Shown: positions 48,099-53,328 of the stretch, one piece after another | Position numbering within the stretch: position 1 is the stretch's first letter | How the letters are laid out: each line of letters starts with the position of its first letter | Assembly: GCF_017220215.1 (NCBI RefSeq) | Contig: NZ_CP071130.1 | Coordinates: 124,001 to 188,000 of the forward strand | Source: Caballeronia sp. M1242 | GTDB lineage: Bacteria > Pseudomonadota > Gammaproteobacteria > Burkholderiales > Burkholderiaceae | Direction of reading: 5' to 3' | Length of the DNA stretch: 64,000 bases | Notes under the pieces: generated by a model | What the model was told of the DNA's origin: nothing | Databases searched by the model: none | The model's input: only the letters and a program-made list of their open reading frames with translations | Position numbers and translations under genes: made by a program

Positions 48099-50324
48099 CT
48101 ACTGCGTCGAATCGGTCTCGTGTGGCCGGTTCGACGGCAACGTGCCGGGGTCCGGCGGCAGCGCGGTCAGAAGTCGCGGGCCCTGATGCGCGCCCGCCAT
48201 CCAGACAGCCTGCCAGTCCGCTTGGCCCGACGGCTGCGCCAGCAGCACGACGATGCTATGCGCTTCCAGCTGCAGTTCGCTGCCCACGAGCGGCCGTTCG
48301 ACGGCGTCAGGTTCCGCGCTGTCTAGCAGCACGTTCCATTCCAAGTGCGGCGCGGGCGGCGCGAACGCGAGCGGGCTCGCGGAGCCGTTGATCATGATGA
48401 GGATGACGTCGATTTCGCTGTGGATGCCGGGTCCCGCGCGACGCAAAGTCAACGCGCGGCCTTCGGGGTCCTGCCACGCTTCGATGGCGAGCGCGTTGCC
48501 GCGTTCGTCGAACCAGCTGACGTCGTAGAGGCCGGGCAGCACTTCGCGGTCGCCGTAGAGAAAGCGCGTTTCGCGCAGCACCGGGTACTTTTTGCGCAGC
48601 GCGATCACGCGCGCGACGAATTCCGTCATCTCCACGCCGCGCGGGCTTTGCGCCGCTTCCCAGTCCATCCACGACAACTCGTTGTCCTGACAGTACGCGT
48701 TGTTGTTGCCGCCCTGCGTGCGAAGAAACTCGTCGCCGCCGAGAATCATCGGCGTGCCGAGCGAGAGCAGCGTCGTCGCGATCATCGAACGCGCGAGACG
48801 CGCGCGGACGTCGAGGATCTTCGGGTCGTCGGTCGGGCCTTCCACGCCCCAATTCGCGCTGCAATTTTCGTTGTGGCCGTCATTGTTGCCTTCCTGATTC
48901 GCTTCGTTGTGCTTGTGCGTATAGGCGGTCACGTCGGCGAGCGGGAAGCCGTCGTGCGACGCGACGAAGTTCACCGATGCCCACGGCTTGCGAAAACGCC
49001 TGTTGAAGAGTTCCGCCGAGCCCGTGAGACGCGCGGCGAGATCGGGCCGCATGCCGGCGTCGCCGCGCCAGAAGCGCCGCACGCCGTCGCGGAACTTGTC
49101 GTTCCATTCCGCGAAGCCCGGCGGATGATTGCCGACCTGATAGCCGTCGGGCCCGATATCCCACGGCTCGGAAATCAGCTTGCGCGTGGAGAGAATCGGG
49201 TCTTGGCGGATGGCGTCGAAGAAGCCCGAGCCCGGATCGAAGCCATGACCTTCGCGCCCAAGCGTGACGCCGAGATCGAAACGGAAGCCGTCGATGTTGA
49301 ACGCGGTGCACCAGTAGCGCAGCGAATCCATCACCATTTGCAGCACGCGCGGATGCGAAAGATTCACCGTGTTGCCGCAGCCGGTCTCGTTGATGTAATG
49401 CCGTTCGTCGCCGGGAATCAGACGATAGTAGCTGGCGTTGTCGAGCCCGCGCCACGACAGCGTCGGCCCAAGTTCGCTTCCTTCGCACGTGTGGTTGTAC
49501 ACGACATCGAGTATGACTTCGATGCCTGCCGCATGCAGTTGCCGCACGGCGATGCGCATTTCGTTGAGCCGATGCGTGGACAGATACGTGGGCTCGGGCG
49601 CGAAGAACGCGGCGGTGTTGTAGCCCCAGTAATTGCGCAGGCCGCGCTCGATGAGGAAGCGGTCGTTCAGAAAAGCGTGCACCGGCAGGAACTCGACGGC
49701 GGTGATGCCGAGCTTCTGCAAGTGCTCGATGAACCACGGCGAGGAGAGCGCCGCGAACGTGCCGCGTTCGTGCTGACGAATATCGCCGCGCAGCATGGAT
49801 GCGCCGCGCACGTGCGTTTCGTAGATGATGGTTTCGCCCCAGGGCGTATCGGGGCGCACGTCGCGGGACCAGTCGAAGGCGTCGTCGGTGACGATGCACT
49901 TGGGCATCGCGGGCGCGGAATCGCGGCGATCCATCGACATGTCGAGCCGGTTCGAATGCACGCGATAACCGAAGAGCGCATCGGACCATCGCCACGGGCC
50001 GACGAGCTTCTTCGCGTACGGATCGAGCAGCAGCTTGTGCGGATTGAAGCGATGCCCGTGCTGCGGCTGATACGGCCCGTGCGCGCGAAAGCCGTACACG
50101 GTGCCGGGATGCGCGCCCGGCAGATAGCCGTGCCAGATTTCGTCGGTGCATTCGGGCAGGTCGAAGCGCATCAGCTCCTTGCGGCCGGTGCTGTCGAAGA
50201 GACACACCTCGATGCGGTGCGCATTCGACGAGAACACGGCGAAGTTGACGCCCAAACCGTCCCAGTTGGCTCCGAGCGGGTACGGAGCGCCCGGGAGCAA
50301 CTTTTCGGGGAGTGCGTTCGGCAT
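48099..50324 (-). CDS. glgX: Glycogen debranching enzyme
   Basis: A 741-residue GH13 isoamylase-type enzyme that hydrolyses alpha-1,6 branches of phosphorylase-trimmed or limit glucan. The CBM48 start GAPYPLGANWDGLGVNFAVF, the nucleophile segment NIDGFRFDLGVTLGRE, KLISEPWDIGPDGYQVG (Glu) and FVASHDGFPLADVTAYTHKH (Asp) are intact, as is the FPVHAFLNDRFLIERG insertion typical of GlgX. It supplies linear chains to TreY/TreZ. The 763-bp gap upstream contains an inverted-repeat element, so expression may be partly uncoupled from glgB. Confidence 0.95.
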   Translation of the reverse strand: MPNALPEKLLPGAPYPLGANWDGLGVNFAVFSSNAHRIEVCLFDSTGRKELMRFDLPECTDEIWHGYLPGAHPGTVYGFRAHGPYQPQHGHRFNPHKLLLDPYAKKLVGPWRWSDALFGYRVHSNRLDMSMDRRDSAPAMPKCIVTDDAFDWSRDVRPDTPWGETIIYETHVRGASMLRGDIRQHERGTFAALSSPWFIEHLQKLGITAVEFLPVHAFLNDRFLIERGLRNYWGYNTAAFFAPEPTYLSTHRLNEMRIAVRQLHAAGIEVILDVVYNHTCEGSELGPTLSWRGLDNASYYRLIPGDERHYINETGCGNTVNLSHPRVLQMVMDSLRYWCTAFNIDGFRFDLGVTLGREGHGFDPGSGFFDAIRQDPILSTRKLISEPWDIGPDGYQVGNHPPGFAEWNDKFRDGVRRFWRGDAGMRPDLAARLTGSAELFNRRFRKPWASVNFVASHDGFPLADVTAYTHKHNEANQEGNNDGHNENCSANWGVEGPTDDPKILDVRARLARSMIATTLLSLGTPMILGGDEFLRTQGGNNNAYCQDNELSWMDWEAAQSPRGVEMTEFVARVIALRKKYPVLRETRFLYGDREVLPGLYDVSWFDERGNALAIEAWQDPEGRALTLRRAGPGIHSEIDVILIMINGSASPLAFAPPAPHLEWNVLLDSAEPDAVERPLVGSELQLEAHSIVVLLAQPSGQADWQAVWMAGAHQGPRLLTALPPDPGTLPSNRPHETDSTQ

Positions 50325-50421
50325 AATTGGTTTTTTGAGCTTCGCTCAGGGGTACTTGGTTTCTTTGTCGGGGAACTTGATTTCTTGTCGGTCTATTAGC
50401 GTTGCCCCTCCCCGGGGCGGG

Positions 50422-50455
50422 GGTTACTTTCTTTGCTGCTGCAAAGAAAGTAACC
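50422..50455 (+). repeat. 15-bp perfect hairpin in the left arm
   Basis: GGTTACTTTCTTTGC pairs exactly with GCAAAGAAAGTAACC around a TGCT loop. On the plus strand a seven-T run follows 23 nt later. It sits within the larger inverted-repeat element. Confidence 0.8.
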
Positions 50456-50950
50456 AAAGAAAGCAGCTTTTTTTAGCCCGAAGCAGTAACAGTGTGGTCA
50501 CTCCGCAGCAAGTCATTGGCACTCAGTTTGAACCAACCCTGAATCACCCTCCACGCCCACTGAACACCACGTCCTCCGAGCCCCTTGGCTCGTCAAAACC
50601 TTCGGGAACATCGCGCATGTCGTTCCTCTCACGTTGCCCAGGCTAATCCGTGTAGCACGCGACTGCCTCCAACGCCTGAAATGGAATCCGCGCGACAGAT
50701 GCTGCACGCGCCGAGCCGGACAAGCACGCAATGTAGTTCAACACAGGCACTTTCTTCTTCCATGCGACACGCGAAAACACGCGTTGGTGTTAACGAGCCA
50801 AGGGGCTCGGAGGACGTGGTGCTCAGCTGGCGCGGAAGGTGATTCAACGCTGTATCCAGCTGAGTGCCACGGTCTCTCTGCGAAGTGACTACCTTTTCAG
50901 TGCTGCGGGCCCAGAAAAAAGCTGCTTTCTTTGGTTACTTTCTTTGCATG

Positions 50951-50982
50951 GGACCAGAGTACGGCGCTAAAGCGCCTACTCT
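50951..50982. repeat. Nested hairpin inserted in the right arm
   Basis: CCAGAGTA-C-GGCGCT pairs with AGCGCCTACTCTGG around an AA loop (8 plus 6 bp with one bulged base). It occupies the insertion that makes the right arm longer than the left. Confidence 0.75.
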
Positions 50983-51087
50983 GGTCGACAGCCAAGAAAG
51001 TGACCCCCGCCCCGGGGAGGGGCAACGCCAATAGACCGACGCGAAAACAAGTTCCCCGAAAAAGCGCAGCAGGCAAAAGCAAAAGTT

Positions 51088-53308
<2,221 letters not shown>

Positions 53309-53328
<20 letters not shown>

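Follow-up and report, generated by a model that had tools for sequence, protein, structure and literature searches.

A gene-less inverted-repeat element between glgX and glgB of Caballeronia carries outward pseudoknot units which occur in at least four phyla

Background

A long palindrome lies between the glycogen genes glgX and glgB of Caballeronia sp. M1242. Does it belong to these genes, or is it a repeat which has settled beside them? An earlier note on this DNA had described it as an inverted repeat of about 700 bases from a family with no gene, which could be a non-autonomous mobile element, or else a boundary keeping genes of synthesis and degradation apart, and whose transcript could fold into a very long hairpin. 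We have studied it in the window (the whole stretch of 64,000 nt which was analysed), in the complete genome and in other bacteria.

The element between glgX and glgB

In the window both genes are on the minus strand, glgX at 48099-50324 and glgB at 51088-53328. The element is found in between, at 50363-51064, and consists of two arms and a middle region (50602-50785, to which no strand applies). The left arm (50363-50601, about 239 nt) contains a structured unit on the minus strand which faces outward, to glgX; the unit of the right arm (50786-51064, about 279 nt) is on the plus strand and faces outward, to glgB. The right arm is longer because it has an extra tip hairpin (approximately 50946-50992). 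Between the left arm and the start of glgX there are 38 nt; the stop of glgB is 23 nt from the right arm. Three ungapped inverted blocks bear out the inverted repeat of about 700 bases: 50363-50438 with 50989-51064 (76 nt, 91% complementary), 50440-50473 with 50915-50948 (34 nt, 100%) and 50468-50600 with 50786-50918 (133 nt, 77%).

The RNA fold of 50340-51090 has a predicted energy of -494 kcal/mol, against -272 ± 8 in shuffled sequences (z -28). A long hairpin in the transcript is predicted, but it is not what evolution tracks, since the arms are not tuned to each other. The complementarity of their inner parts is 0.82 within the same element and 0.81 across elements in M1242 (G000), and 0.81 against 0.83 in a copy-rich relative (G022). 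In these two genomes there is no excess within elements over that between elements, and we reject a coevolution of the arms as a long hairpin. The constrained part is a unit of about 75 nt near each outer end, not the long hairpin.

Copies in the genome and in the genus

In the M1242 genome (5.76 Mb) we count eight copies with both arms, a half copy and some fragments. The left arm was matched in 26 of the 41 genomes searched. Among 58 congeners the exact core hairpin has from 0 to 214 copies per genome and is absent from 22; the reversed pattern, used as a control, gave no match. Named records with the core include many Caballeronia species and Paraburkholderia. The earlier note had proposed to search for other copies of the arms, and a lack of further copies would have spoken against it; they are present in the genome itself and in its relatives. 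The elements are about 600-900 nt long. No coding ORF was found inside related elements, so they form a repeat family with no gene, as had been proposed.

In G022 a unit of about 600 nt is conserved whole, middle included, in both orientations. The middles of 12 elements (about 175-190 nt) match in all 66 pairs, 35 in minus and 31 in plus orientation, which indicates that the whole element would spread as a unit in either orientation. In M1242 the similarity of the middles is absent between most copies, which therefore look older. Judged from the sequences compared, the element behaves as a non-autonomous unit similar to a MITE, which appears to spread whole.

One copy in M1242 (E5, L054 14334-15200; G000:C1:2736814-2737700) has a nested form. 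A complete element is bordered on each side by additional outer arm ends, as would result from its insertion into an earlier element reduced to a scar.

Occupied, empty and scarred sites

Orthologous sites differ among congeners. At the L091 site the element is present in G022, and nine congeners have a short gap. Both occupied and empty states are also found at L093 and L090, although empty orthologous sites by themselves fit gain as well as loss. At L093 the empty gaps have only tens of nucleotides, and the element splits a tight gene pair. The E1 site is occupied in M1242 and, judged by gap length, in G056; it has ordinary terminators in G011 and G010, and a scar left by internal deletion in G012 and G055. 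Such deletions within the palindrome, which leave hairpin scars, have been seen at E1, L090 and the glg site. No target site duplication was recognised by eye at the aligned junctions, where the intergenic regions of empty relatives are too diverged. The multiple copies, the occupied, empty and scarred sites and the conservation of whole units support the suggestion of a non-autonomous mobile element.

Two widely spaced pairs of units enclose genes which are similar to gabT/gabD or otherwise ordinary; we reject them as an autonomous version with an internal gene.

A pseudoknot unit at the end of each arm

Each arm ends in a conserved unit, newly recognised here, with its sense strand outward and the order a(5)-TTTCTTTG-b-a'-b'. 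Its outward consensus is a(5)-TTTCTTT-G-STTAC-TTTCTTT-a'(5)-NNN-AAAGAAA-GTRAS, with a size of about 45-75 nt inside arms of about 240 nt. In the left arm the unit is defined by sequence and covariation at 50423-50467 of the minus strand: a (50467-50463), the third strand TTTCTTT (50462-50456), the foot (50454-50450), the pyrimidines of stem b (50449-50443), a' (50442-50438), the purines (50434-50428) and foot' (50427-50423). This unit shares its strand with glgX and ends about 80 nt before the start of that gene. In the right arm it occupies 50921-51004 of the plus strand: a (50921-50925), the third strand (50926-50932), the foot (50934-50938), the stem-b pyrimidines (50939-50945), the purines (50993-50999, first base mismatched) and foot' (51000-51004). 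Here an inserted hairpin on the plus strand (50946-50992) replaces the tip. This palindromic insertion contains GGGACCAGAGTACGGCGCTAAAGCGCCTACTCTGGTCG, a separate palindrome at 50950-50987 of the window, and is shared with copy E4 and, in either orientation, with arms of G012, G053 and G045.

The sequence of stem a/a' varies freely and its pairing is kept: we have found GCTGC/GCAGC, TCGCC/GGCGA, GGTGC/GCACC, CCTGC/GCAGG, CCTCC/GGAGA and others, with 22 types of at least 4 bp against 4.6 in shuffles. When both stems are considered in 40 distinct units, 96.5% of the cells are paired. Double changes are found in 102 cells, where shuffles give 38 and slid strands no more than 19; the units were picked for diversity, and the shuffles ignore relatedness, which the slid controls keep. 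The covariation score was reached by none of 500 shuffles. The two covarying stems follow the order a-b-a'-b', which is therefore the topology of an H-type pseudoknot. Wobbles in the foot stem of the outward strand are 39 G.T and only 2 A.C, so that the outward strand is the structured one, subject to selection.

Two overlapping GC stems come after the unit in Burkholderiaceae, arranged as S1(4)-1-S2(5)-S1'-1-S2'. In the left arm they occupy 50404-50423 of the minus strand, with S1 CCCC at 50423-50420, S2 GCCCC at 50418-50414, S1' GGGG at 50413-50410 and S2' GGGGC at 50408-50404. In the right arm they are found at 51004-51023 of the plus strand (S1 51004-51007, S2 51009-51013, S1' 51014-51017, S2' 51019-51023). 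S1 and S2 are fully paired in 34 of the 48 distinct units of the genus; the fully paired ones represent 12 distinct combinations, where shuffles give 0.5. In gammaproteobacterial units a simple GC hairpin seems to take the place of the overlapping stems.

Evidence for a triple helix

A third strand of the pyrimidine motif must run parallel to the purine strand, and in the H-type topology found here loop 1 is parallel to the purine strand of stem b. The rules for triples are followed in 634 of the 644 positions of 92 units, which were chosen without requiring pairing. The canonical tract TTTCTTT is its own mirror, so the test is carried by asymmetric variants; these are few, as one tract sequence is common to most units. 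In all nine asymmetric tracts the loop is the mirror of the partner strand, as expected for a third strand bound by Hoogsteen rules, and in none is it a direct repeat, which indicates a three-way covariation. Such variants (loop/partner/purines) are TTCTTTT/TTTTCTT/AAGAAAA in Variovorax, Undibacterium and others, TTTTCTT/TTCTTTT/AAAAGAA in L382 and TCTCTTT/TTTCTCT/AGAGAAA in Ralstonia. A looser scan gave 25 mirrors and no direct repeat, part of them from windows shifted by one base. An origin of the two pyrimidine tracts as direct repeats is rejected. From covariation and topology, the pseudoknot is apparently held by a triple helix.

Distribution beyond the genus

The structured unit occurs in at least four phyla: Pseudomonadota (Beta- and Gammaproteobacteria), Negativicutes, Bacteroidota (Chitinophaga) and Fusobacteriota (Ilyobacter). 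The core was found in Ralstonia, Variovorax, Herbaspirillum, Neisseria, Eikenella, Lysobacter, Xanthomonas, Pseudomonas, Marinobacterium, Selenomonas, Chitinophaga and Segetibacter, with near-identical forms in Pasteurella and Ilyobacter. Copy numbers reach 45 in a Selenomonas MAG, 39 in Chitinophaga and 39 in Silvimonas, with zero in the reversed controls. Contamination could explain a stray hit in a MAG, but probably not Chitinophaga, an isolate genome with 39 copies and a variant of its own; there the units are again in outward-facing inverted arms, with variable middles. The distribution is patchy, since the exact 20-mer is present in only 7 of 299 genomes in an even sample of the phylum. 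We searched E. coli and found no unit. In a Selenomonas region (L398, G372:C6:9000-21000) units appear on one strand every few hundred to few thousand bases, six of them within 12 kb, unlike the paired form of Caballeronia.

No Rfam family matched the unit at the gathering score. TwoAYGGAY RNA (RF01731) is found about 70 nt upstream of the unit in two genomes, at L382 1365-1429 (above the gathering score) and L162 1377-1442 (just below it); it does not cover the pseudoknot. Both loci are of the gammaproteobacterial type. The window and the other loci compared with Rfam gave no match to RF01731. The core strings are printed in no open-access paper on bacteria, and our searches on repeats and MITEs of Burkholderia and Caballeronia found nothing that matches. 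A phage origin is rejected: one search gave no viral match and another only three viral contigs.

Position beside genes

In 38 loci the median distance of the element to gene 3' ends is 37 nt, and to 5' ends 158 nt. The neighbouring genes are convergent in 13 cases, tandem in 22 and divergent in 3. These genes were obtained with a simple caller based on codon usage, and the loci include the glg site itself and a duplicate count of one element. At two sites, L091 and E1, intrinsic terminators are present in congeners without the element and lacking in its carriers, where the element takes their place.

These features would agree with a portable bidirectional terminator or insulator of transcription, in which entering transcripts meet a GC-rich hairpin and then TTACTTTCTTT. 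The element would be kept beside gene 3' ends, and in the glgB-glgX gap, because of this function. Terminator-like hairpins are flagged in both entering directions, 4 against 1.6 in shuffles. However, the T-tract after the GC hairpin is interrupted, and the wobble bias marks the outward strand, not the entering one, as the selected structure. Elements in Chitinophaga adjoin ordinary terminators, and some copies, such as the one at L093, split gene pairs only tens of nucleotides apart. We find this explanation rather unlikely, although more likely than the alternatives which follow.

Single-stranded or duplex form

The unit might instead act in double-stranded DNA, as an intramolecular triplex (H-DNA) or as a duplex site bound by a protein. 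H-DNA, too, would be marked by mirror-symmetric pyrimidine tracts such as these two. But seven triples are short for such a structure, which requires neither the b/b' hairpin nor a covarying a/a' stem, and a duplex site should show no strand bias between G.T and A.C wobbles. We hold a duplex form to be improbable. The unit would probably act as a single strand, most likely as RNA, with single-stranded DNA as another possibility.

The glg site in the genus

Most members of the genus with a readable glgX-glgB gap carry the element, and either the element or a scar is found in nearly all. Scars are present in G055, G009, G017 and G010; G054 has a bare gap of 60-72 nt and G044 a different palindrome. 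Distant species have a version which has diverged in sequence but keeps the architecture, with compensatory changes (GTGC/GCAC, GCGC/GCGC; CGTCA/TGACG, CTTCA/TGAAG). This persistence would be explained equally by an old insertion, homogenised throughout the genome, and by repeated insertion at a favoured site. A role of the element at the glg locus is possible from its presence, whole or as a scar, in nearly all the members examined.

Could it then be a regulatory RNA of the host, for example a leader of glgX, with the other copies as by-products? The persistence and compensatory change in the genus, together with a left unit placed just upstream of glgX on its own strand, would agree. On the other side, the four congeners with scars, the bare gap and the different palindrome do without it, and copies elsewhere adjoin unrelated genes, so we give this proposal very little credence.

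In the gaps of distant congeners (L137, L138, L340, L341) we have also observed further inverted layers, TCCGTTCGCACTCGG ... CGAGTGCGAACG and GGTTAGCGGTCGG ... CCGACCGCTAACC. They surround the element, or persist without it in G044; those gaps are therefore nested palindromes.

Relation to known repeats and folds

The element resembles bacterial MITEs, such as Correia/NEMIS, RUP or RU-1/RU-2, by its terminal inverted repeats without a transposase gene, its intergenic position and its many dispersed copies with polymorphic insertion sites. It differs in that each arm, of about 240 nt, has a complex structured unit, and in its extension to at least four phyla. No target duplication was recognised by eye in the diverged intergenic regions, and no parent IS or other mobiliser was found among the Y1 genes and the two widely spaced pairs of units examined.

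REP sequences and REPINs also form inverted pairs of hairpins in intergenic regions with a high copy number. However, their hairpins have 20-40 nt, and here the unit reaches about 75 nt with a pseudoknot and a triple helix, in elements of about 600 nt; no RAYT gene flanked by the repeat was found. A giant REPIN moved by a RAYT (Y1) transposase is the least credible explanation, as the single Y1-family gene found in each of nine congeners, which might favour it, is present also in congeners without the exact core (G012, G013, G050), the Y1 genes of these nine and 11 other bearers have no unit within 1.5 kb, and five unit-bearing genomes, including Chitinophaga with its 39 units, have no Y1 match. 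In M1242 the Y1_Tnp/RAYT-like gene is found at L310 1126-1932 (G000:C1 near 2543026), next to a gltB-like gene; no repeats of the element's family were found near genes of this type in the nine congeners.

Telomerase RNA and the SAM-II and preQ1-II riboswitches have H-type pseudoknots in which loop 1, made of pyrimidines, occupies the major groove of stem 2. The likeness is in the working of the fold and need not reflect shared descent, and here the unit has dozens of copies per genome, within probably mobile palindromes between genes.

Conclusions

We have computed a repeat family, its presence and absence at orthologous sites, the conservation of whole units, the covariation of stems and triples and the position at gene 3' ends. 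We consider it probable that the element is a gene-less palindromic mobile repeat, amplified in trans, which has outward triple-helix pseudoknots at its ends and lies beside gene 3' ends. It would be amplified as one unit, in either orientation, by a factor acting in trans. It would then settle beside gene 3' ends, where it may replace terminators, as seen at two sites, and would decay by internal deletion into small hairpin scars. In each outward H-type pseudoknot, TTTCTTT would lie in the major groove of stem b, with U.A-U and C+.G-C triples, and in Burkholderiaceae the overlapping GC stems would follow. The outward unit is probably the end by which the element is recognised or protected. 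More tentatively, the element might represent a new class of bacterial repeat, with members in four or more phyla, whose units encode a telomerase-like triple-helix pseudoknot RNA. Recognition of this RNA would serve to replicate or protect the element itself, perhaps by way of an RNA intermediate.

A single structured unit with three-way covariation, present in dozens of copies in some genomes, thus lies outside every Rfam family. If it is mobile, it is a gene-less element moved by a factor acting in trans; if it is regulatory, the neighbourhood of gene 3' ends has a common feature which annotations have missed. In both cases its structure can be tested on an RNA of 45 nt, and a curiosity among glycogen genes becomes a test case.
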